A DNA stretch of 53,442 nucleotides from contig CAMDBU010000017.1 in the NCBI GenBank assembly GCA_945889495.1, positions 1-53,442 of the forward strand, given 5' to 3'. A program made the position numbers and the translations under genes. How positions within the stretch are numbered: position 1 is the first letter of the stretch; each line of letters begins with the position of its first letter. The notes under the pieces were generated by a model. The model made no database searches and was not told the DNA's origin. It saw only the letters and a program-made list of their open reading frames with translations. Source of the stretch: Syntrophobacter sp. SbD2. Its GTDB lineage: Bacteria > Desulfobacterota > Binatia > UBA9968. Shown here one piece after another: positions 32,610-51,253 of the stretch.

Positions 32610-33167
32610 ATGGAAAAATTAAACATTGGCACTATCATTCAGGAAGCGATCTCGCGATTTAGCCAAAATCGCAGCGGCGACAAGCCGCCGGTGTTCGTCA
32701 CTCTCGCACCCGCCATAAGCCCGGTGCCGTGGGAAAACCCAAGCGCGGAAACGTTCATGCGCCGGTTTGTCTACGAAACTCTACTAACCAGCGATCCCGA
32801 GGCGCCGATCGAAGTTTCGCTGCGCTGCAAAAGCAGCCTCAGCGACCTTAATGCCTTCATCGGCATCAAACCCGCCTTCTGGATTCAGCTGCGCGTTACC
32901 GGCCGCGGCCTGCGCATCGGTGAAAAAGCAATCGAAGAACTATTCGACGAACTCGGCTTCCGGGTCGAAGAATGGATCGGCGTTGAAGGCTCGGGTACCC
33001 GCTTGGGCATCTTCGGCACCATCGACGCGCCGACGGTGAAGATGGTCTTTTGTCTCCAGTCGGTGCACCACAAACTGAAATGCGACTTGTTATTGCCAAT
33101 TCATGACCGTTCGATCCATTCGGACTTGGTGAGTCGTGAGGAGGTAAGCCGATCGCCGCAAGCTTAA
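32610..33167 (+). CDS. Conserved-looking hypothetical protein
   Basis: This is a 185-residue soluble protein without signal peptide or membrane segment. I do not recognise a family. It has an N-terminal helix, a Pro-rich linker (FVTLAPAISPVPWENPSAE), then an alternating strand-helix part with RVTGRGLRIGEKAIEELFDE and a Gly-rich turn EGSGTRLGIFGT. The ATG has AAAGGAGAGAGCC before it, a strong ribosome binding site. A candidate Pho box lies upstream, and a UspA gene follows after 81 bp, so it is probably induced by phosphate limitation. Confidence 0.7.
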   Translation: MEKLNIGTIIQEAISRFSQNRSGDKPPVFVTLAPAISPVPWENPSAETFMRRFVYETLLTSDPEAPIEVSLRCKSSLSDLNAFIGIKPAFWIQLRVTGRGLRIGEKAIEELFDELGFRVEEWIGVEGSGTRLGIFGTIDAPTVKMVFCLQSVHHKLKCDLLLPIHDRSIHSDLVSREEVSRSPQA

Positions 33168-34376: not shown

Positions 34377-34396
34377 ACCCAAAGGAATTGATTTCA

Positions 34397-34756
34397 ATGA
34401 TCAAAGATACGCCAAACCCAAAACCACGAAGTCAGAGCCTGGAATCTTTTCTCGCCAAACGCCAGCAGCGCCAGTCCATCGACCAAGTCGCCCACGAGAT
34501 CGTCAATCAACTGACGGTACTCAATCTGGTCGGTTCAAGGATCATCGCGCGCTCTCCAGCCGGCGCCGACGCCAAGCTCGCGCGCGAAGTTGAGATCTTC
34601 GAGCGCTCCATCGCTGAAGCTACGGTTCTGGTCCAACAACTAGTCAACGATCTGCAATCCCAAAAGAAATGCACCCAGCAAGAAGCGAAAACCGCGCCGG
34701 CAGTTCCCGGCCAGGTCATTCGCTTCCTACGTGGGGTGTCAGGTCAAAAGCGCTGA
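34397..34756 (+). CDS. DHp-only (HisKA-like) orphan protein
   Basis: This protein of 119 residues contains a two-helix segment like the dimerisation and phosphoacceptor domain of histidine kinases. SIDQVAHEIVNQLTVLNLVG carries His33 in an H-box-like AHE-x2-N-x-LT context, and a second helix FERSIAEATVLVQQLVNDLQ follows. No ATP-binding domain, receiver or membrane segment is present. It could be a histidine phosphotransfer protein or a dimerisation competitor of a kinase. The ATG at 34397 lies 10 nt after AAAGGA; a TTG at 34388 in frame is too close to that site. It lies between psiE and ppx. Confidence 0.6.
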   Translation: MIKDTPNPKPRSQSLESFLAKRQQRQSIDQVAHEIVNQLTVLNLVGSRIIARSPAGADAKLAREVEIFERSIAEATVLVQQLVNDLQSQKKCTQQEAKTAPAVPGQVIRFLRGVSGQKR

Positions 34757-34861: not shown

Positions 34862-36412
34862 ATGGCGCAGCACTTCGCGGTAGTCGACGTTGGCAGCAAT
34901 GGCATGCGTTGCCAGGTGGCGGTGGTCGACAAACCGAAACACTATCGGGTCATCGAACAAGACCGCCAACCGGTGCGGCTCGGCCGTGATGTTTTTAAGA
35001 CCGGAAAATTAAATCCGCAGACCGCCGAGGCCGCGCTCAAAGTTCTCGGCGATTTCAAGAAACTCGCGGACCGGTTTCACGTCAAGGCGATTCGCGCGGT
35101 CGGCACCAGCGCCCTGCGCGAAGCCTCGGACAGCCGGCAATTTCTCAAGCGCGCCGCCAAGCTCGGTATTCCCCTTGAGGTGCTATCCGAAGAGGAAGAG
35201 GCCCGGCTCATCAGCCTGGGCATTATGAGCGGTCTGCGCTTCGATCTGCCGCTCGGCTTGTTTCTCGACATCGGCGGCGGCAGCGTCGAGCTCGCGGTGG
35301 CCAACACGACCAACACCTATTGCTTGTTTAGCCTACCCTTGGGTGCGGTGCGTTTGACCGAAAAACTCATTGCCCACGACCCGCCGCGACATAAAGAAAT
35401 CAAAGCGCTGCGCGAGGATGTTCAGGCGCAGCTCAAACCGGTGGTGCGTCGTATCCAGCAAGAAAAATTCACCATGGCGTTCGGCAGCGGCGGCACCATC
35501 ACCACGCTGGCGGAAACCGACACTCGCGTCGGCGGCGCTCCCAATCGAAACGGCTCATTGATCGTGCTGCGGCGCCAACGTCTGCGCGCGCTCTTGGAAC
35601 TGCTGATGAAGGAGCCGGCCGCCGAGCGCGCGCAGATGATCAACGGCGATCCCAAACGTGCCGATATCATTATCGCCGGGGGATTCGTCCTCCATGAAAT
35701 CATGTCGGAGATCGGCCTGGAATATATATTTGTTTCCCGCCGGGGCCTGCGCGACGGTCTGATGGTCGATCTCCTGCAACAACGCTATTCGGAAAGCGGG
35801 CCATGGCAACCGGATTCCGACCGGGCGGAATCCCTCGATCAAGTCTGTCAAAAATATCTTTACGACGCCGCCCATGCCCATCATGTCAGCCAGCTGGCGC
35901 TCAATCTATTTTACCAATTGCACGACCTGCATGGCCTGCCGGAAAAGTACTCGAGCATTCTCCACGCCGCCGCCATGTTGCACGACATTGGCCTGTTCCT
36001 CGCCGAGCCCAAACACCACAAGCATTCCTATTATCTGATCAAGAGTTCGGGCATGAACTCGTTCAACCGCGTCGACCTCGACTTGGTCGCCAACATCGCG
36101 CGCTACCATCGCAAGGCCCACCCAAGCCCTAAACATCTGGGCTTTAGCCAGCTGTCGCCGGCCAATCAAGAAATCGTGCGCAAGCTGAGCTCGCTCTTGC
36201 GCATCGCCGACGCCTTCGACTTCAAACATGATCAGCAGGTCGACAATTTGAGCTGTACTTTCAACAAATCGCGCTCGCTGACGCTGACGGCGGCGTCGGC
36301 GGGCAACCTCAAGGACGAAATTCGCTGGGCCGAAAGCAAAGGTAAACTGATTCAAGAAGTCTTTAACATCGATCTAGTCATGAAACCCAATAAACCGTCG
36401 CGTACGCGATAG
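34862..36412 (+). CDS. ppx: Exopolyphosphatase, Ppx/GppA family with HD domain
   Basis: This 516-residue Ppx/GppA phosphatase removes terminal phosphate from polyphosphate (or the 5' phosphate of pppGpp). Part 1 (about 1-300) is the ASKHA fold: FAVVDVGSNGMRCQVAVV, AIRAVGTSALREA and LFLDIGGGSVEL are the conserved segments. Part 2 (about 310-500) is an HD-like helical domain with LHAAAMLHDIGLFL. This gives the typical length. A Pho box precedes it, and four genes of related function follow on the same strand with short gaps (21-22 bp or less), forming a polyphosphate and signalling operon. Confidence 0.9.
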   Translation: MAQHFAVVDVGSNGMRCQVAVVDKPKHYRVIEQDRQPVRLGRDVFKTGKLNPQTAEAALKVLGDFKKLADRFHVKAIRAVGTSALREASDSRQFLKRAAKLGIPLEVLSEEEEARLISLGIMSGLRFDLPLGLFLDIGGGSVELAVANTTNTYCLFSLPLGAVRLTEKLIAHDPPRHKEIKALREDVQAQLKPVVRRIQQEKFTMAFGSGGTITTLAETDTRVGGAPNRNGSLIVLRRQRLRALLELLMKEPAAERAQMINGDPKRADIIIAGGFVLHEIMSEIGLEYIFVSRRGLRDGLMVDLLQQRYSESGPWQPDSDRAESLDQVCQKYLYDAAHAHHVSQLALNLFYQLHDLHGLPEKYSSILHAAAMLHDIGLFLAEPKHHKHSYYLIKSSGMNSFNRVDLDLVANIARYHRKAHPSPKHLGFSQLSPANQEIVRKLSSLLRIADAFDFKHDQQVDNLSCTFNKSRSLTLTAASAGNLKDEIRWAESKGKLIQEVFNIDLVMKPNKPSRTR

Positions 36413-36433
36413 ATAAAAATACCGGAGGTTCCG

Positions 36434-36874
36434 ATGCGCCGTGCGATCCACGATCGAAACGTGCTTTTTCTCTGCGACGATAACGCCATGCTAAGTCAAA
36501 TGGCCGAAGCGACGGCAAAACATCTGGCGCCGCCGAAGACCAGAATTCTCAGCGCCGGTATCAAGCCGGGGGTCATTCCTGAAGCCGTGATCAAGGCGAT
36601 GAACGAGATCGGCATCGCCATGACCAACCATAAGTGCAAGGGCCTCGCCGAGGTGCCCATGGACGAGATCGATTTGGTGGTTAGCTTTGGCGGCGCCCAC
36701 AAACAATGCGCTCATCTGCCGGGGCGCACTAAGATTGAAAGCTGGCCGGTCTCCGACAAACTCGCCAACCGCGCCGGACAGGCTGACGATTTGGACGCCA
36801 TGCGCGGCGCGCGCGACGATATTGAAAAACGCGTATTCGCCTTGTTCATGGACTATTGGCGAAATATTTCTTAG
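36434..36874 (+). CDS. Degenerate ArsC/LMW-phosphatase-like protein
   Basis: This 146-residue protein has the LMW tyrosine phosphatase/arsenate reductase fold. NVLFLCDDNAMLSQMAEA aligns with the active loop LFLCTGNSCRSQMAE of the PhoR-fused ArsC domain here. Cys14 and Asn17 remain, but the essential P-loop Arg is Leu20 and the second Cys is Met19. Further on, SFGGAHKQC keeps only the second of the two redox cysteines. It is therefore probably not a working reductase or phosphatase, and may bind an anion or regulate. The start follows CGGAGGTTCCG. It lies between ppx and sixA. Confidence 0.75.
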   Translation: MRRAIHDRNVLFLCDDNAMLSQMAEATAKHLAPPKTRILSAGIKPGVIPEAVIKAMNEIGIAMTNHKCKGLAEVPMDEIDLVVSFGGAHKQCAHLPGRTKIESWPVSDKLANRAGQADDLDAMRGARDDIEKRVFALFMDYWRNIS

Positions 36875-36894: not shown

Positions 36895-37416
36895 ATGAAT
36901 CTCTACCTCATGCGCCATGGCATCGCGGTGGCCGCCGATGACCCGAGCGTCACCGATGACCATCAACGGCCGTTGACTAATAAGGGCGTCAAACGGATGC
37001 GCCGTGCTGGCCGTGGCATGCGGCGTTTGGGGATCGAATTCGCGGCAATCTTAACCAGTCCCCTGCCGCGGGCGCGCCAGACCGCCGACATCGTCGCGGC
37101 GGCGCTCGGTCTCGAGTCGCGGGTGGAAGAGATATCCGGTCTGGCGCCGGAAAGTTCGGTGGATCATTTGCTGTCCGGGTTGACCCGCTACCAGGACCGC
37201 GACCATCTGCTGCTGGTCGGCCATCAACCGCTGCTCGGACAGACCCTGGCTTATCTGATCGACCAAAGCCAGACGAGCAAACTGGAGTTCGATTTGCGAA
37301 AAGGTTCGCTTTGCCGAGTTGAACTCGATGGTCTACCGGTACATAGGCCGGCAATGCTCCACTGGCTCCTGACGGCTAAACAACTTCGGCTGTTGGCCGA
37401 GCGGTCCAACGACTAA
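36895..37416 (+). CDS. sixA: SixA-type phosphohistidine phosphatase
   Basis: This histidine-phosphatase protein of about 173 residues has the branch 2 RHG motif in MNLYLMRHGIAVA (H8). TSPLPRARQTADIVA and LLLVGHQPLLG supply the second Arg and His of the active site. SixA removes phosphate from phosphohistidine on kinases with HPt domains, such as ArcB. The frame is open to 36856; the ATG at 36895 begins the RHG sequence at the usual place. Lying in the ppx-CHAD run, and with a DHp-only protein nearby, it may reset histidine phosphorelays, which is inferred. Confidence 0.87.
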   Translation: MNLYLMRHGIAVAADDPSVTDDHQRPLTNKGVKRMRRAGRGMRRLGIEFAAILTSPLPRARQTADIVAAALGLESRVEEISGLAPESSVDHLLSGLTRYQDRDHLLLVGHQPLLGQTLAYLIDQSQTSKLEFDLRKGSLCRVELDGLPVHRPAMLHWLLTAKQLRLLAERSND

Positions 37417-37427
37417 GTGAGCGACCC

Positions 37428-38333
37428 ATGCGCGCCACGTCAATCGATACCGTTGCCGCACGAAGCAAACTAGTGAAGCTGGGACATCGGCGGCTGGGAA
37501 AGTACGCCACCCTGCTGCCCAAGGCGCTGATCGACGACGCTCCTGAAGTCATCCATGACCTGCGCGTCGCCAGCCGCCGTCTCCAACAGCTGCTGCGCGC
37601 CCTTGGGCCGGCGGCACACGCTAAAGTCCTTAAGAAAACCACCGCCGTCCTGCGCCACGTGCGGCAAGCTTTGGGACCATGCCGCGATCTCGACGTCAAC
37701 TTGGCGCTGATCGATGCCAAGCGCGAACAAGGCGCCGCCGGCAGCGTGCAACGCGCATGGCAGTTCATGGCCGACGAAGTGGCGTCCCAACGGCCCGCCC
37801 TGCTCGCCCGCGCCCGTCACGAAATCGCCAGCCAAGACCTGTATAAATTGATCCACCGAGTGCAACGGTTGTTGGCGGCCCAACAAAGCGACTTCGATGC
37901 GCTAGAACCGATTGCCGCGACAATGGTTAAGTCCATGGAAGTCTGGCGAGAGGCCTTTGAGTCGGCGCGCCAACAGCCTGAGGTCGCGGCCTTGCACAGG
38001 CTCCGCATCGCCGGTAAAAAATTACGCTATCGCGCCGAGATCCTGACCGCTCTGGGCCAAGCAAAGGTAAAGCCGCTGGTCAAAACGCTCGAAGCCATGC
38101 AGGCCGCGCTCGGCGATTGGCATGACCGCTCGGTACTGCTACATCAGGTCGCTGACTTTATCGGCCGGCCGGAGTTCTTGGCCGAACACCCCGACATGGC
38201 CAGGATATTATTGGCGGAGATGGAAAAGGAACGGCTGCGCAGCGCCGCCGACGCGGCGAGCATCCTGCGCCTAGCCGACAAGGTGCCAGAGGCCTGGACC
38301 AATTGGAAAGCCAGCACGGTGACGACTGAATAG
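37428..38333 (+). CDS. CHAD domain protein
   Basis: This 301-residue helical protein is made of one CHAD domain (conserved histidine alpha-helical domain): EVIHDLRVASRRLQQLLRAL, RDLDVNLALI and the second half RLRIAGKKLRYRAEIL. CHAD domains bind inorganic polyphosphate through conserved His and Lys/Arg residues and are often found beside ppk, ppx or CYTH genes. It starts 11 bp after sixA and is convergent with ppk1. A role in attaching to, or localising on, polyphosphate granules is likely. Confidence 0.9.
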   Translation: MRATSIDTVAARSKLVKLGHRRLGKYATLLPKALIDDAPEVIHDLRVASRRLQQLLRALGPAAHAKVLKKTTAVLRHVRQALGPCRDLDVNLALIDAKREQGAAGSVQRAWQFMADEVASQRPALLARARHEIASQDLYKLIHRVQRLLAAQQSDFDALEPIAATMVKSMEVWREAFESARQQPEVAALHRLRIAGKKLRYRAEILTALGQAKVKPLVKTLEAMQAALGDWHDRSVLLHQVADFIGRPEFLAEHPDMARILLAEMEKERLRSAADAASILRLADKVPEAWTNWKASTVTTE

Positions 38334-38378: not shown

Positions 38379-40469
38379 TTAATCCAGATTCACCTTGGGC
38401 CGGGTTGGCGCGCCGGCTTGCTCGGCGCGGATGAATTCATAGAGCTGTTCCTGGGAGCGCGCCAGTTGCGAGGGTTCGGACGCCATGCGCACCGAACTCC
38501 CATCGGACTGAATTCGCCAGCCCTTTGCGGTATCGGCCAGTTGAATTTCCAGAACCTTTTTCAACTTGGCTTGATGCGGTTCATCGAGCACCGGGAAGGC
38601 GATCTCGACCCGGCGATCGAAGTTGCGTGGCATCCAATCGGCTGAAGCCAGCAGGTATTCGGGCTTGCCGTTATTCTGGAAGTAAAAGATGCGCGCATGT
38701 TCGAGATAGCGGTCGATGATGGAGATCACCCGGATGCGCTCGGATATTCCCGGCACTCCCGGGCTGAGGCTACACATGCCACGGACGATCAGATCGATTT
38801 CGACGCCAGCTTGGCTGGCCAGATACAGTTCGTCGATGATCGACGGATCGACCAGGCTGTTGACCTTGGCGATGATCCGCGCCGGATGGCCGGCCCGGGC
38901 ATGGTCCGCTTCGCGGCGCACGCTGATAATAAAACTTTCCCGCAGGCCGATCGGCGCCAAGATCAAATGGTTGAATTTTTGCGGCCGCGTGTAGCCCGTG
39001 AGTAAATTGAACAGCTCGGTGAGATCCTGGCCGAAGGATTCCCGGCAGGTGAACAAACCGAGGTCGCTATAGACGCCGGCGGTGCGGACATTGTAGTTAC
39101 CCGTCGCGAGATGGCAATAACGGCGAATGCCGTCGGCCTCCTGGCGCACCACCAAACAGATTTTGCAATGGGTCTTGTAACCGACCAGTCCATAAACCAC
39201 ATGGGCGCCGACTTCTTCCAGGGCGCGCGCCCAGGTGATGTTGGCCTCTTCGTCGAAGCGCGCTTGCAGCTCAACCAACACCGACACTTCCTTGCCCGCT
39301 TCGGCGGCGCGCGCCAGCGCTTGGGCGATCGGCGAAGTCGGGCTGACTCGGTACAGCGTCATCTTGATCGCCAGCACCTTGGGGTCCTTGGCCGCTTCCT
39401 CGACGAAGCGCACCACCGCGTCGAATGATTGATAAGGATGAAAGGCCATAACATCGCCGCCGCGGATCGCGCTCCAGATATCCGCGGCGCGCTCGAAAGC
39501 CGGCACCGGCACCGGCGCCTGGGGCCGGTCCTTCAATCGCGGCAGATTCACCGCGGCATAGAGTTGAAACAAATCGGTGAACGCGGTGAAGCCTTTTCCA
39601 GGGTAGAGGTCTTCGCACGAAAGCTCCAGTTCCTCGACCAGTTGGGTGATGGGCTCCACCGGGATATCGGGATCATATTGCAGCCGCACCGCGTCGCCCA
39701 TGCGGCGATCGCGCACGCCCTTCTCGATGGTCATCATGAGGTTCTCGTCGCGCCGGCGCGATACCAGAAAATCAGCATCCCGGGTTACCCGAATGGCGTG
39801 ACAGGAACGGATCTCAAAACCGTGATAAAGCCGCGGCAAGTAGTGGCGCAAAGTATCTTCCAGCAGCATGAAGGCATGTTGTCCATCGTGCGCCGGTAGC
39901 GGAATGAACCGCGGCGCCACGTGGGTCGGGATATGGACGATGGACAGATCGGTGTGCGGCAATCTTGAGGACAGTATCGGCCGCAACGACACCACCAAAC
40001 ATAGAGAACGGTTGGCCAGATAGGGAAACGGATGGGCCGGATCGATCGCCAGCGGCGTGACGATGGGATAGAGCATGCGCAAGAAATAATCTTCGAGAAA
40101 GCGCTCTTGCTCGCCGCTCATCTCTTCTGGACGTACCAGGTGAATCCCCTCGGCGCTCAGTTGGGGCAATATGGTATTGAGAAAACAAAAATGCTGCTCG
40201 GCCGCCAGTTCATGGACTCGGGCAGATATCGCGCTCAAGTTCTCCGCCGGAGTGAGCCCGTCGGGATCGGTCGAGCCGTCGCCCTTGAAGACCATGGCTT
40301 TGAGTCGGGCCACGCGCACCATGAAAAATTCATCGAGATTGGAACTGAAGATGGCGAGGAATTTTACCCGCTCAAGTAGCGGCACGCTCTCGTCCTTCGC
40401 TTCTTCGAGGACGCGCCGGTTAAATTCCAGCCAGGATAGCTCACGATTGATATAACTGCTTGCATCCAT
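38379..40469 (-). CDS. ppk1: Polyphosphate kinase 1
   Basis: This 696-residue enzyme makes polyphosphate from ATP reversibly. The N-terminal ELSWLEFNRRVLEEA and LAIFSSNLDEFFMVRVA are the family start. GYKTHCKICLVVR carries the autophosphorylated His (His435 of E. coli), and LEHARIFYFQNNGKPE carries the second active-site His (His592). SADWMPRNFDRRVE closes the C-terminal domain. Full length matches the family. Three TAAC repeats with 11-bp period lie about 90 bp upstream (40557-40583), so it is probably PhoB-controlled. It is convergent with the ppx-CHAD genes, which place synthesis and hydrolysis in one locus. Confidence 0.95.
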   Translation of the reverse strand: MDASSYINRELSWLEFNRRVLEEAKDESVPLLERVKFLAIFSSNLDEFFMVRVARLKAMVFKGDGSTDPDGLTPAENLSAISARVHELAAEQHFCFLNTILPQLSAEGIHLVRPEEMSGEQERFLEDYFLRMLYPIVTPLAIDPAHPFPYLANRSLCLVVSLRPILSSRLPHTDLSIVHIPTHVAPRFIPLPAHDGQHAFMLLEDTLRHYLPRLYHGFEIRSCHAIRVTRDADFLVSRRRDENLMMTIEKGVRDRRMGDAVRLQYDPDIPVEPITQLVEELELSCEDLYPGKGFTAFTDLFQLYAAVNLPRLKDRPQAPVPVPAFERAADIWSAIRGGDVMAFHPYQSFDAVVRFVEEAAKDPKVLAIKMTLYRVSPTSPIAQALARAAEAGKEVSVLVELQARFDEEANITWARALEEVGAHVVYGLVGYKTHCKICLVVRQEADGIRRYCHLATGNYNVRTAGVYSDLGLFTCRESFGQDLTELFNLLTGYTRPQKFNHLILAPIGLRESFIISVRREADHARAGHPARIIAKVNSLVDPSIIDELYLASQAGVEIDLIVRGMCSLSPGVPGISERIRVISIIDRYLEHARIFYFQNNGKPEYLLASADWMPRNFDRRVEIAFPVLDEPHQAKLKKVLEIQLADTAKGWRIQSDGSSVRMASEPSQLARSQEQLYEFIRAEQAGAPTRPKVNLD

Positions 40470-42508: not shown

Positions 42509-42537
42509 CTGTCATCGTTCCGTAACCTGATTGTAAT
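42509..42537 (+). promoter_or_regulatory. Candidate Pho box for the pstS paralogue
   Basis: CTGTCAT (42509), CCGTAAC (42520) and TTGTAAT (42531) at 11-bp period with 4-bp linkers CGTT and CTGA. The first unit equals the E. coli Pho box half-site. It ends 42 bp before the start codon. Confidence 0.7.
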
Positions 42538-42578: not shown

Positions 42579-43574
42579 ATGCATCGATCCATACTCCGAG
42601 CACTCGCGCTTTTGGCTTGCTTAACCTCGAGCCCGAGTCTCGCCCGTTCACAACCGGTCATCACCATTGACGGCACGGCTAGGCTAGCGCCGATATCTCA
42701 AGAAGCCGCCCGCCTCTATCACGAGCTCATCAAGGACACCGCCAAGGTGAGTGTGAAGGCTTCAGGCACGGCTAACGGATTCAAAAACTTTTGCCGCGGC
42801 GAGCTGAATGTTAGCGCCGCGAACCGACCGATGGTTCGCGCGGAACTAGAGCTGTGCAAGGGCGGCGGCGGCGAATATTATGAGATCCCTATCGCCTACG
42901 ATGTCCTGACCATAATCGTCAACGCGCAAAACCATTGGGCGCACTCCATCACTATGGACGCCTTGAAGCGTCTCTGGGAACGTTCCGGGCAAAATCAAAT
43001 TAGCCGCTGGAACCACCTGCAGCCGCTATGGCCACCCTATTCCATCCGTCTTTTTAGCAGCCCGCCGGACAGTGAAATCTTCGAGTTCTTTGCTGAGGCG
43101 ATGCAGAGTGGTGCCAAAGGTTTACGCAGCGATGCGACTCATCTCAGCAGTAGCTCCGAAATCGTCCGGGCAGTTAGCGGCAATCCATCAGCCATCGGCT
43201 ATTGCCCGATCGCCGAATGTGCCAAGAAAACCACCGGAACCAAGGTCCTGTCCATAGATTTCGGTCAAGGTCCCATCGCTCCGTCGGCTCTGACCGTGCA
43301 GAACAACCGATATCGCCAGCTAGCTCGCCCGCTCTTCCTATATATCAATCGGAAAAGCACCGAGCAGATCGACATCCATAGATTCGTCGCGCTTTATCTT
43401 TTGCGCGCTCGGCAACTGGTTGGCCTGGCCGGTTACCTGCCGCTGGCGGATCGCGCCTACAAGATTGCTGTGAATGTTATGAAAAATAAGAAAGTCGGCA
43501 GCGCCTACGGCGGCGTAGTCCCCGGCGATCTAACCATCGACGAATTCATAACCAGTAATGCCGGATTGCGTTAA
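42579..43574 (+). CDS. Divergent PstS-like phosphate-binding paralogue
   Basis: This 331-residue secreted protein (signal peptide LRALALLACLTSSPSLARS) aligns along its length with the PstS encoded next to it. However, the phosphate-binding positions differ. The PstS segment DGSSTVFPV reads DGTARLAPI here, GTGGGFKKF reads GTANGFKNF, and [10 protein letters not shown] reads PPDSEIFEFF. The Ser/Thr that grip phosphate are largely lost. It may bind another oxyanion or a phosphonate, or act as a sensor. A three-repeat Pho box precedes it. About 230 bp separate it from pstS, which has its own Pho box, so the two are expressed in parallel. Confidence 0.8.
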   Translation: MHRSILRALALLACLTSSPSLARSQPVITIDGTARLAPISQEAARLYHELIKDTAKVSVKASGTANGFKNFCRGELNVSAANRPMVRAELELCKGGGGEYYEIPIAYDVLTIIVNAQNHWAHSITMDALKRLWERSGQNQISRWNHLQPLWPPYSIRLFSSPPDSEIFEFFAEAMQSGAKGLRSDATHLSSSSEIVRAVSGNPSAIGYCPIAECAKKTTGTKVLSIDFGQGPIAPSALTVQNNRYRQLARPLFLYINRKSTEQIDIHRFVALYLLRARQLVGLAGYLPLADRAYKIAVNVMKNKKVGSAYGGVVPGDLTIDEFITSNAGLR

Positions 43575-43805: not shown

Positions 43806-44795
43806 ATGAAGAAAGCACTATTGGCCCTTTCCGTACTCGCCCTGGTCGGCATCGCGCCGCGAGCGGCCAAGGCGCAGATCGTCCAGATCGACGGTTCGAG
43901 CACCGTGTTTCCGGTCACCGAGGCGGTTGCCGAAGAATTCCAAAAGTCGAAAAAGGGCAAAGTCAAAGTCACCGTCGGCATCGCCGGCACCGGCGGCGGT
44001 TTCAAAAAATTCTGCCGCGGCGAGATCGATGTCAGCAATGCCTCACGGCCGATTCTCAAGTCGGAGATCGAGGATTGCAAAAAGAGCGGCGTGCAGTTCA
44101 TCGAACTACCGGTGGCCTATGACGCGCTCACGGTCATCGTCAATCCGAAGAATGACTGGGTTAAATCGATCACCGTGCCAGATTTGAAGAAAATGTGGGA
44201 ACCGGCGGCGCAGGGCAAGATCACCACCTGGAATCAAATTCGGCCCGAATGGCCCAATAGCCCGCTGAAACTGTTCGGCCCTGGCGCCGACTCCGGCACC
44301 TTCGATTACTTCACCGAGGCGATCGTCGGTAAGGCCAAGTCGAGCCGCGGCGATTTCACCGCTAGCGAAGACGACAACGTGCTCGTCCAAGGCGTGAGCA
44401 ACGACCGCAACGCGCTGGGCTATTTTGGCTTCGCCTACTACATCGAGAACCAAGCGAAGCTCAAGGCGGTCCCCATCGAGACCGCCAAGGGACCGGTCGG
44501 ACCGTCGGCTAAGACCGTCGAGGACGGCACTTACCAACCGCTAGCTCGGCCGATCTTCATCTACGTCAGCAAGAAATCCTTGGACAGCAAGCCTGAGGTT
44601 AGGGAGTTTGTCGACTTCTATCTAAAAAATGCCTCGAAGTTAGTTAAGGATGTGAAATACATCGCATTACCTCCGAGCGCTTATAAGATCGCTGAGGAGC
44701 ATGTCAGCAAACGCAAGGTCGGCACGGTCTTTGGCGGCACCGCCGAAGTCGGCGTCAAGATCGAGGATTTAATGAAACGCGAAGCGAATTTCTAG
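43806..44795 (+). CDS. pstS: Phosphate-binding protein PstS
   Basis: This 329-residue periplasmic high-affinity phosphate-binding protein has a signal peptide ([19 protein letters not shown]). The binding segments are intact: [38 protein letters not shown] (about 60-80), and [16 protein letters not shown]. It delivers phosphate to PstC-PstA. The ATG has AAAGGAGAAAGAACT before it. A hairpin follows the stop and separates it from pstC, as expected when binding protein is needed in excess. A divergent paralogue lies just upstream. Confidence 0.95.
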
Positions 44796-48345: not shown

Positions 48346-49065
48346 ATGAGTAATGCCATCTACAAAATCCTCGTCGTCGAAGACGAGCCCGACATTCGCA
48401 AGCTGGTGCACTACAACCTGACCCAGGACCATTACAAGGTGCTCGAAGCGGATAACGGCGAACAAGCACTCAAACTGATCCAGCGCGACCAACCGAGTCT
48501 GGTCATCCTCGACCTGATGATGCCCGGCATGTCGGGCTTAGAGGTATGCCGAACTCTGCGCGGCAAGGAAGAAACCGCCAGACTGCCAATCCTCATGTTG
48601 ACCGCCAAGGCCGGCGAAGCGGACCGCGTGCTTGGGCTAGAAATGGGCGCCGATGATTACTTGGCCAAACCTTTCAGTCCGCGCGAACTAGTCGCCCGCG
48701 TGCGCGCGATTCTACGCCGCAGCAACGGCGCGGCGCAGAGTGAAGCCGTGCCAGGTTACGCCAAGGGAGTATTGAAGATCGACTTCGCCACTTACGAAGT
48801 GGCGGTCGGCGGCAAGCCGGTCAAATTGACCCTCAAGGAATTCGAGTTGCTCAAGTTCCTGGTCCACAACCCCAACCGGGTGCTCAACCGCGATCAACTT
48901 CTCGACCGAGTCTGGGGCGGCGATACCTACGTCACGCCGCGCACCGTCGATGTGCATATACGACGCTTGCGCAAAGCGATTGAAAAGGACGATAGTAAGC
49001 CGAAATGGATTCTCACCCTGCGCGGCGTCGGCTACAAGTTCGATGAAAAGGCTTTGGAATCTTAG
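48346..49065 (+). CDS. phoB: Phosphate response regulator PhoB
   Basis: This 239-residue OmpR-type response regulator has a receiver with ILVVEDEPDIRKLV, the phosphorylated D56 in VILDLMMPG, and LAKPFSPRELVARV. A winged-helix DNA-binding domain (about 140-235) has LTLKEFELLKFLVHNPNRV and TVDVHIRRLRKAIE. It should bind the 11-bp-period boxes in this window. It starts 6 bp after phoU, and its last 23 bp overlap the phoR start. Confidence 0.95.
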   Translation: MSNAIYKILVVEDEPDIRKLVHYNLTQDHYKVLEADNGEQALKLIQRDQPSLVILDLMMPGMSGLEVCRTLRGKEETARLPILMLTAKAGEADRVLGLEMGADDYLAKPFSPRELVARVRAILRRSNGAAQSEAVPGYAKGVLKIDFATYEVAVGGKPVKLTLKEFELLKFLVHNPNRVLNRDQLLDRVWGGDTYVTPRTVDVHIRRLRKAIEKDDSKPKWILTLRGVGYKFDEKALES

Positions 49066-51253
49066 TCTCGTCGGCAAAGTATTTTTCTCCTACCTTGCGG
49101 TCACCCTGCTGCTCGGGGTCGGCTTCTACCTTTCCGCCAATTCGCTGATCCGCGATTTTCACATCGGCACGCTGAGCCATCGCATGGAGCAAGAAGCCCA
49201 CTTGCTCGGCCGAGTCCTGCCCTTTGGCATCGAAGGCGACCCACTCGACGCGATCTGCCGCCAGCTCGCCGGCGAACTGGGCTCACGCATTACTGTGATT
49301 ACCCTGGAGGGGAAAGTGGTCGGCGACTCAGCGGAGCCTTCGCTCAAGATGGACAACCATCGCAGCCGGCCTGAAGTGCGTGAAGCCATCGAGTCGGGCA
49401 CCGGCAGCGCGCAACGCTACAGCACCACGGTTGGCTTCGACATGCTCTACCGGGCCTTTCACCAGCGCGCCGACCGGCAAGCGCGCATCGTCCGCATCGC
49501 CATCCCATTGAAAGACTTCGACGGCGTCATCCGCGGCATGCGCCGCTCGCTATTCGCTGGCTTGGCGCTCGCTTCGGTCGCCGGACTCCTGCTCGCCTGG
49601 TGGTTTTCCAAGTACCTGAGCCGCCGCGTACAACGTTTGACGGATTTTACCGCGGTCATCGCCGAGGGGAATTTCCCCCAGGGCTTTTTAACCAGCCATG
49701 AGCGCGATGAGATCAGCTTACTCGAGCGCCGGCTCAACGACATGAGCCAGCGCATTTATGACAACCTGGTGGAGATCACCGGAGAGAGAGAAAAAGCCGA
49801 TTCGATCCTGCGTTGCATGATCGAGGGAGTGGTGGTCATCGATCCCAAAGGCAACGTGCTGGTTATCAACGACCGGGCCAAGCAAATGTTTCATGTCGCC
49901 GACGGACGCGAGATTCACGGCGCCTCCATCCTGGAACTGTCACGTCATCCTGACATCCGCGCGGTGTTGGATGAAGTCTTGAAATTCGACTTCACCAGCA
50001 CCCCCTATCGCAAGGAAATTGAAATCGAAGAGGGCGCCTGGTTCATCGTCAATGCCGCGCCGCTGCGCACGCCTTTGCGCATGACCCTGGGCTCCATACT
50101 GGTATTTCACGATGTCACTGAACTGAAAAGGCTCGAAACGATTCGCAGCGACTTCGTCGCCAACGTCTCCCATGAGCTGCGTACCCCGCTGACGGCGATC
50201 CAAGGTTACGTCGAGACCCTGATCCATACACCGCCCGCCGATGCCGACATGCAGCGGCAATTTCTCGAAATCATCGTGCGCCATGCCGAACGGCTCGGCC
50301 GTTTGACCGAAGATCTATTGACCTTAGCCGATCTTGAGTCGGGCAAAATCCGCATCGCGCCGCGGCCGGTGGATGCCGGCCGATTGATCGAGCAAACCCT
50401 GGAAGTGTTTTGGGAACGGGCCGGCAAAAAAGACATCGCTCTGACCCAACAAATCGCCGATCACTGCGGCTATGTGCGGGGCGATCCCGATCGGTTGCAG
50501 CAACTGCTGATCAATCTAATCGACAACGCGATCAAGTACACGCCCACCGGCGGCCAAGTAGCGGTCAGCGCGGCGCCTAGCCAGGCCGACAACCGAATGC
50601 AAATCGAGATATCGGTCGCCGACAACGGCGCGGGCATCCCGGAAACGGATCTGCCGCGCCTGACCGAGCGCTTTTACCGCGTCGACAAAGCGCGCTCGCG
50701 CGATCTTGGCGGCACCGGTCTGGGCCTGGCGATCGTCAAACATATCGTTCACGCTCATGGCGGGGAGTTGCAAATTACCAGCGAGTTGAACAAAGGCACG
50801 ACGGTTACCGTGCGCTTAGCCAGCGTTGAGAAAGAATCAGCCAAGAATAGCATCTTGTTTCTCTGCACCGGGAATTCTTGCCGGAGCCAAATGGCCGAAG
50901 GCTTCGCGCGGCAGTTGGCCAATGGCAATTACCGCATCTTTAGCGCCGGCACCGAACCCAAAGGCGTTCATCCGTTGGCCATCCAGGTTATGGAAGAAGT
51001 GGGCGTCGACATTTCACGGCAAACCTCCAAGGGGCTCGATGCGATTGTGCTTGCCGATCTCGACCAGGTGATCACCCTATGCGGCGATGCCGATGAACGT
51101 TGTCCGACCCTGGCCGCCAAGGTCAAACGCAGCCACTGGCCGTTAGCCGACCCAGCTTCGGCGCGGGGCAGCGAGGCCGAGATACTGGCGCAGTTTCGCC
51201 AGGTGCGCGATCAAATCAAGCAAAGGGTCGCGGCCCTGCTCACCGATCGCTAA
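49043..51253 (+). CDS. phoR: PhoR sensor kinase fused to thioredoxin-type arsenate reductase
   Basis: This 736-residue protein reads through without a break. TM1 is at about 7-29, an extracytoplasmic segment at 30-165, TM2 at 166-186, HAMP at 187-240 and PAS at 250-350. The HisKA domain carries His377 (VSHELRTPLTAI), and the ATPase domain has LLINLIDNAIKYTPTG and GTGLGLAIVKH. A PhoR would end near residue 585. Instead, after a short linker, residues 599-736 form an ArsC domain: NSILFLCTGNSCRSQMAEGF with C608 and C613, then C680 and C687 (LCGDADERCPTL). These four match C10, C15, C82 and C89 of the S. aureus plasmid enzyme at constant offset. The ArsC part lacks its own ATG. The ATG at 49043 overlaps phoB. 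Confidence 0.92.
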   Translation: MKRLWNLSLVGKVFFSYLAVTLLLGVGFYLSANSLIRDFHIGTLSHRMEQEAHLLGRVLPFGIEGDPLDAICRQLAGELGSRITVITLEGKVVGDSAEPSLKMDNHRSRPEVREAIESGTGSAQRYSTTVGFDMLYRAFHQRADRQARIVRIAIPLKDFDGVIRGMRRSLFAGLALASVAGLLLAWWFSKYLSRRVQRLTDFTAVIAEGNFPQGFLTSHERDEISLLERRLNDMSQRIYDNLVEITGEREKADSILRCMIEGVVVIDPKGNVLVINDRAKQMFHVADGREIHGASILELSRHPDIRAVLDEVLKFDFTSTPYRKEIEIEEGAWFIVNAAPLRTPLRMTLGSILVFHDVTELKRLETIRSDFVANVSHELRTPLTAIQGYVETLIHTPPADADMQRQFLEIIVRHAERLGRLTEDLLTLADLESGKIRIAPRPVDAGRLIEQTLEVFWERAGKKDIALTQQIADHCGYVRGDPDRLQQLLINLIDNAIKYTPTGGQVAVSAAPSQADNRMQIEISVADNGAGIPETDLPRLTERFYRVDKARSRDLGGTGLGLAIVKHIVHAHGGELQITSELNKGTTVTVRLASVEKESAKNSILFLCTGNSCRSQMAEGFARQLANGNYRIFSAGTEPKGVHPLAIQVMEEVGVDISRQTSKGLDAIVLADLDQVITLCGDADERCPTLAAKVKRSHWPLADPASARGSEAEILAQFRQVRDQIKQRVAALLTDR

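Follow-up and report, generated by a model that had tools for sequence, protein, structure and literature searches.

A maintained, presumably non-catalytic ArsC relative encoded between ppx and sixA in a bacterial phosphate gene cluster

We analyzed a stretch of 53,442 nucleotides (the window), taken from an assembly of 5.64 Mb in 239 contigs, and focused on the open reading frame (ORF) at 36434-36874 on the (+) strand, which encodes a 146-aa relative of ArsC and LMW-PTP. Comparison with orthologous sequences supports the view that this protein descends from an enzyme but lacks its catalytic residues, i.e., that it is a pseudoenzyme. We consider it probable, though well short of certain, that the protein is a maintained pseudoenzyme that works by protein binding or regulation, rather than by catalysis or retention of an oxyanion, within a phosphate/polyphosphate gene cluster. 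Pseudoenzymes in general are a familiar class of proteins; a limited search of the open-access literature found no bacterial pseudoenzyme of the ArsC/LMW-PTP fold.

The gene and its phosphate-related neighborhood

The features of the window that bear on this protein are the following, with the basis of each assignment in parentheses.

34862..36412, (+) strand: long Ppx/GppA with a C-terminal HD-type domain, directly upstream of the putative pseudoenzyme gene (Pfam, homologue search)
36424..36428, (+) strand: GGAGG, Shine-Dalgarno-like, before the start codon (sequence)
36434..36874, (+) strand: putative pseudoenzyme of the ArsC/LMW-PTP family, 146 aa (ORF, Pfam, orthologue alignment, AlphaFold model, Foldseek, VIA-align)
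36473..36496, (+) strand: former P-loop, residues 14-21, CDDNAMLS replacing CTGNSCRS (alignment)
36683..36709, (+) strand: former redox segment, residues 84-92, first redox Cys gone, Cys92 present (alignment)
36755..36757, (+) strand: former catalytic Asp, residue 108 (alignment)
36839..36862, (+) strand: C-terminal helix signature A-L-F-x-D-x-W-R, residues 136-143 (orthologue alignment, model)
36895..37416, (+) strand: SixA-like histidine phosphatase, directly downstream of the putative pseudoenzyme gene (Pfam His_Phos_1)
37428..38333, (+) strand: CHAD-domain protein (Pfam)
38379..40469, (−) strand: presumed polyphosphate kinase PPK1, convergent (sequence)
48950..51253, (+) strand: presumed PhoR-type sensor kinase with a C-terminal ArsC domain that starts near 50846 (domain scan)

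The 146-aa protein matches Pfam LMWPc (PF01451) with 44.5 bits, which exceeds the gathering cut-off of 23.2. Its gene follows ppx after 21 nt and is itself followed by sixA after 20 nt, a gene order that is consistent with its earlier placement in the ppx operon. In all seven further orthologues inspected (G008 not among them), the start likewise has a G-A-rich stretch ahead of it. Promoter and terminator scans from ppx to sixA, which are uninformative for such a bacterium, returned no promoter-like site and no (+)-strand terminator-like site.

Several gene names used here are our assumptions. We take the product of 36895..37416 to be SixA and that of 38379..40469, judging from its sequence, to be PPK1. 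From gene order and general knowledge, the region beyond PPK1 is presumably a pst-phoU-phoB-phoR cluster and the kinase at 48950..51253 presumably PhoR; the latter contains sCache-like, PAS, HisKA and HATPase domains, with HAMP slightly below the cut-off. Two tandem genes ahead of pstC (42579-43574 and 43806-44795) are, we presume, PstS-like. A scan of the window with what we take to be the Pho-box consensus gave three matches at three mismatches versus 2.2 expected, with none ahead of ppx and one at 42509, just before the first PstS-like gene. Two other ORFs in the phosphate cluster (32610-33167 and 34388-34756) have no Pfam match; the former has relatives in two genomes (G005 and G008), where they adjoin Usp genes.

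Catalytic residues and predicted fold

Residues 14-21 of the protein read C-D-D-N-A-M-L-S, while the PhoR-fused ArsC domain in the same window has CTGNSCRS. The sequence-only reading of the window had described a rewritten loop with Arg changed to Leu and the second loop Cys to Met, as well as the loss of one of the two redox cysteines, and both descriptions are confirmed: the first redox Cys (LCG motif) is gone and Cys92 remains. In working enzymes, the loop Arg clamps the oxyanion, and the two redox cysteines of pI258 ArsC are Cys82 and Cys89 (pI258 numbering). The loops of the nine orthologues that we found (see below) are CDDNAMLS, CEDNACLS (in two), CDDNASLS, CEDNASLS, GEDNACLS, DEDNAGLS, GMDQSCSG and SPADTA-S. 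In the alignment, none of the nine has the catalytic Arg, a loss common to the whole pseudoenzyme clade on the tree, and the group lacks the C-x5-R motif of active LMW-PTPs (PF01451); C-x5-R-S is kept in 62 of the 63 other rows collected, the remaining row having Ns at the loop. Since nine genomes agree on the loss of Arg, a sequencing error in the loop is ruled out.

The other catalytic positions vary among the orthologues. The nucleophilic loop Cys, which was said to stay, does so in the window protein and in five of the nine orthologues in all, but is absent from the other four. As it is missing in both the G015/G005 and the G019/G008 pairs, parsimony on the tree indicates that it was most likely lost at least twice. 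The first redox Cys is absent from all nine, the second (the Cys92 equivalent) is kept in six, including the window protein, and residue 108, the catalytic Asp of the DP loop, is Asp in four (again including the window protein) and Asn or Ala in five. No Cys is common to all nine; specifically, G020 has the loop Cys only and G005 the Cys92 equivalent only. Conservation of CDDNxxL, proposed earlier as a check, does not hold as such. However, [DE]-D-N-A-x-L-S is common to seven of the nine orthologues, so the loop is not simply random but has a new consensus, perhaps still with some role, structural or other. The loop Asn is retained in seven orthologues and two acidic residues lie within the loop in seven, while the loop of G008 is one residue shorter owing to a deletion. 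Together, the sequences strongly indicate a loss of catalytic function. The non-catalytic role proposed earlier is supported to the extent that, with Arg lost in all nine orthologues and their frames intact, the protein appears to be a maintained, presumably non-catalytic relative.

The fold itself is predicted to be kept. An AlphaFold model built with 13 alignment rows reached a pLDDT of 85 and a pTM of 0.83, with the last helix spanning residues 120-145 (a single-sequence model, pLDDT 52, was not used). Foldseek and VIA-align place this model with the pI258 and Bacillus subtilis ArsC structures, with Z-scores up to 19.2, the value obtained by VIA-align for pI258 ArsC (2cd7; 130 residues, rmsd 2.2). 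The model is thus in keeping with the remark that the rest of the fold is well kept.

The best solved relatives are the thioredoxin-coupled ArsC proteins of Staphylococcus aureus pI258 and B. subtilis (TIGR02691; 1ljl, 1jl3), which have the same fold and overall sequence; the orthologue profile matched 1jl3 best among solved structures (1.4e-25). All nine orthologues match TIGR02691 at E < 0.001, with the window protein scoring 71.5 bits, below the cut-off of 174.3. Apart from this low score, the pseudoenzyme differs from these enzymes in lacking C-x5-R-S and the redox Cys pair and in having a longer conserved C-terminal helix. A parallel is offered by the STYX-like pseudophosphatases of the PTP superfamily, which, in passages of PMC2175518, are eukaryotic, dual-specificity-type proteins whose enzyme fold is conserved after loss of the catalytic loop and for which binding roles are proposed. 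Both STYX and the window protein keep a fold without the catalytic loop, but the latter is an ArsC/LMW-PTP fold in a bacterium. An LMW-PTP fold found in a complex is that of trypanosome mt-SAF26, an LMWPc-domain protein of a mitoribosome assembly complex according to the title lines of PDB entries 6sga and 7pua; it is, however, a remote relative (E of 1.1e-05 in the profile comparison), and a search of the open-access literature for mt-SAF26 by name gave no match.

Distribution, selection and relation to the PhoR-fused ArsC domain

Orthologues with scores of 194-250 bits were found in 9 of the 25 family genomes, and all other matches listed for the genomes of the family (25), class (148) and phylum (395) scored at most 134.2 bits. 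No further member at a comparable score was detected in the 148 class genomes (up to the best 27 candidates scored per genome) or among the matches listed for the 395 phylum genomes (up to the best 10 per genome). A search of genome contigs for short peptide patterns yielded three already-known orthologues and one canonical ArsC. The relatives retrieved by name are metagenome assemblies labeled Deltaproteobacteria and Candidatus Binatia, and we accordingly assign the window to class Binatia.

The order ppx, pseudoenzyme gene, sixA, CHAD gene was observed in eight of the nine genomes (the window and seven others). The ninth, G008, has the order Usp-Usp-PsiE, pseudoenzyme, PstS, which places the gene within the pst-phoR cluster. 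In G008, long Ppx (E ≤ 1e-20), CHAD (1e-6) and PPK1 (1e-40) were not found, and SixA gave a generic match only; therefore, Ppx, CHAD and PPK1 cannot be the sole partners of the pseudoenzyme. At the same cut-off for PPK1 (E ≤ 1e-40), G017 and G023 likewise gave no match, G023 having a PPK1 fragment at a contig end. Conversely, in two genomes congeneric with the window (G002 and G003), sixA comes immediately after ppx and no pseudoenzyme gene separates them, and in G009 sixA and the CHAD gene are present with neither long Ppx nor the pseudoenzyme gene; the operon genes are thus able to dispense with the pseudoenzyme. Overall, the pseudoenzyme gene occurs in 8 of the 10 genomes with long Ppx and in 1 of the 13 without (Fisher p 0.0007, shared ancestry ignored), leaving out two genomes with a ppx fragment only (G013 and G014).

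Two side observations concern the same region in relatives. Where the pseudoenzyme is missing from the locus (G002 and G003), a separate ArsC-like gene lies on the far side of ppk or ppx (L048:8834-9313 and L102:2843-3217). Downstream of CHAD, an adjacent pair of genes that we take from their P-loop motifs to encode thymidylate-kinase-type NTPases occurs at L040:10444-11837 and also in L033, L039 and L041; no such pair was found among window ORFs of at least 150 aa.

The pseudoenzyme appears to be kept intact by selection. All nine orthologues have an open frame, and dN/dS is 0.10 for G023/G020, the only pair with a usable dS (0.89), which supports the earlier remark that the gene is not simply decaying. 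For the neighboring genes of this pair, the ratio is 0.09 (Ppx), 0.17 (SixA), 0.23 (CHAD) and 0.06 (PstS). The dN of the pseudoenzyme (0.091) exceeds that of these four neighbors (0.028-0.051) two- to threefold, and its dS is likewise above theirs (0.23-0.45); thus, the protein evolves more quickly, and its low ratio relies on the high dS. Other pairs with a finite dS (1.5-2.7, near saturation) gave dN/dS of 0.15-0.34.

The pattern of conservation differs between pseudoenzymes and fused domains. Mean pairwise identity is lower in the pseudoenzymes for the loop (0.53 versus 0.95), the Asp loop (0.38 versus 0.70), the redox segment (0.42 versus 0.62) and the whole protein (0.51 versus 0.64), but higher for the first strand (0.87 versus 0.72) and the C-terminal helix (0.71 for residues 124-143 versus 0.62 for residues 124-138). 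Within the signature at residues 136-143, A, L, F, D, W and R are invariant in all nine orthologues, and W142 sits in a stretch that is absent from 13 of the 15 fused domains.

A complete ArsC domain had been placed on PhoR about 12 kb away. The domain is indeed intact, with CTGNSCRS and both redox cysteines kept, but it starts ~14 kb downstream. It shares 36% identity with the pseudoenzyme, which lies in the same phosphate gene cluster. The tree comprises 72 rows, for which its 128-143 columns are few. On it, the pseudoenzymes form one clade (support 100/98; 100/99 without the loop and C-terminal columns) and join 15 PhoR-type ArsC domains (93/91; 84/85 without those columns), one of which is a stand-alone frame that we placed there (G006). 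Support for the fused domains as a clade of their own is 70/13 and 90/71, so the pseudoenzymes may instead have arisen from within them. Based on this grouping, the gene and the fused domain most likely go back to a common ancestor inside this bacterial family, although support is moderate.

The fused domains, the nearest group to the pseudoenzymes on the tree, differ from them in having kept the P-loop (14 of 14 readable rows) as well as the second redox Cys and the Asp (15 of 15). The PhoR-ArsC fusion was counted in 13 of the 25 family genomes (G017 from a second contig, G013 from a row with Ns), twice in G003; G022 ends inside an apparent fused domain. The pseudoenzyme is present in 5 of the 13 genomes with the fusion and in 4 of the 8 without (Fisher p 0.67, shared ancestry ignored; G006, G021, G022 and G024 left out). 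In G023 and G020, the pseudoenzyme is intact while the ArsC domain behind PhoR is broken, reduced to a frameshifted remnant with stops in the former and to a short remnant with a stop in the latter. In G004 and G019, tblastn detected no ArsC domain behind PhoR; elsewhere in G004 (completeness 67%), an ArsC-like fragment of 38 residues lies at the edge of a contig. The catalytic sister can thus go while the non-catalytic protein, a separate gene, stays. The suggestion of a dedicated partner of PhoR-ArsC is therefore not supported by the co-occurrence data or by G023 and G020, and the link between the two, as judged from sequence comparison, is one of descent. A scan of viral contigs with short patterns from the fused domain returned no relative. 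An alignment search turned up 16 distant ArsC-like loci, which we used solely to supply alignment rows (seven taken).

Candidate roles of the protein

Given the lost Arg, the acidic loop and the absence of any Cys shared by all nine orthologues, both catalysis and oxyanion binding appear unlikely, and the best-kept parts (the first strand, the basic N-terminus and the C-terminal helix) point to a binding or regulatory role. An ArsC-type domain whose nearest relatives in the set are the PhoR-fused domains is a separate gene between ppx and sixA. Its product may bind another product of the phosphate/polyphosphate cluster, probably through the basic N-terminus and the extended C-terminal helix (ALF-D-WR). 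Gene order favors a client in the ppx-sixA-CHAD operon, so our guess for the most likely one would be the CHAD protein, SixA or Ppx. A shared origin with the PhoR domain, together with the G008 case, leaves room for PhoR or another Pho protein as client, and a regulatory role of some kind may apply.

A more specific form of the PhoR option is that a duplicated ArsC domain kept its kinase-packing surface and acts on PhoR in trans as a free-standing regulator. The grouping of pseudoenzymes with PhoR-fused domains on the tree is consistent with this, as is the position of the G008 gene between psiE and pstS in the pst-phoR cluster, away from any adjoining ppx-sixA-CHAD genes. PhoR matches were also found in all nine pseudoenzyme genomes, but they occur in 22 of the 25 family genomes with or without the gene, so the presence of PhoR is weak evidence. 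Moreover, the gene adjoins ppx in eight of the nine genomes, its presence is unrelated to the fused form, and the invariant residues common to both groups look mostly structural to us. We regard direct regulation of PhoR as doubtful, if conceivable. It is very unlikely that the protein is a non-catalytic sensor that still binds phosphate, arsenate or polyphosphate, an anion-binding role that had also been put forward. The gene does sit among phosphate genes, and the loop has kept its Cys in five orthologues and its Asn in seven, with a new consensus in seven. Nevertheless, Arg is gone from all nine, seven carry two acidic loop residues, G008 has the loop deletion, and the loop has fallen from the best-kept part of the domain (0.95) to an average one (0.53 versus 0.51 for the whole protein).

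Nor do the remaining cysteines (the loop Cys in five orthologues, Cys92 in six) argue strongly that the chemistry was changed rather than lost, e.g., to a thiol function, since none is kept in all nine and G020 and G005 each retain a different one; we give this reading the least weight of all. That the gene is a slowly decaying relic would fit its divergent loops, its elevated dN in G023/G020 and the fact that two congeneric genomes have no copy at the locus. Against this stand the nine open frames, the dN/dS of 0.10 and the invariant C-terminal signature, as well as the stop-bearing remnants of the fused domain in G023 and G020, which show what a relic looks like in those genomes; slow decay is therefore highly improbable. 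The same evidence, namely the uninterrupted frames, the dN/dS and the comparison with the broken fused domain, leads us to judge an outright pseudogene unlikely.

Returning to the maintained pseudoenzyme with a binding or regulatory role, a fuller scenario can be drawn, although as a whole we deem it unlikely. A duplicated PhoR-fused ArsC domain would have been freed, lost its catalysis and become part of the polyphosphate operon, linking the Ppx/SixA/CHAD module to PhoR signaling by binding both; in G008, it would have outlived the operon as a pure part of the Pho system.

The gene is of interest as a candidate link between polyphosphate turnover and phosphate sensing and as a case in which an enzyme fold has apparently been reused as a binding or control part. 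G023 and G020 provide a natural contrast inside single genomes, with the catalytic sister domain broken and the dead paralogue kept. For arsenic biology, the finding has little import, apart from the need to avoid annotating the protein as an arsenate reductase. A limited search of the open-access literature found no account of this gene or of a PhoR-ArsC fusion. The PhoR-ArsC kinase at 48950-51253 could in its own right be an arsenate- or redox-linked phosphate sensor.
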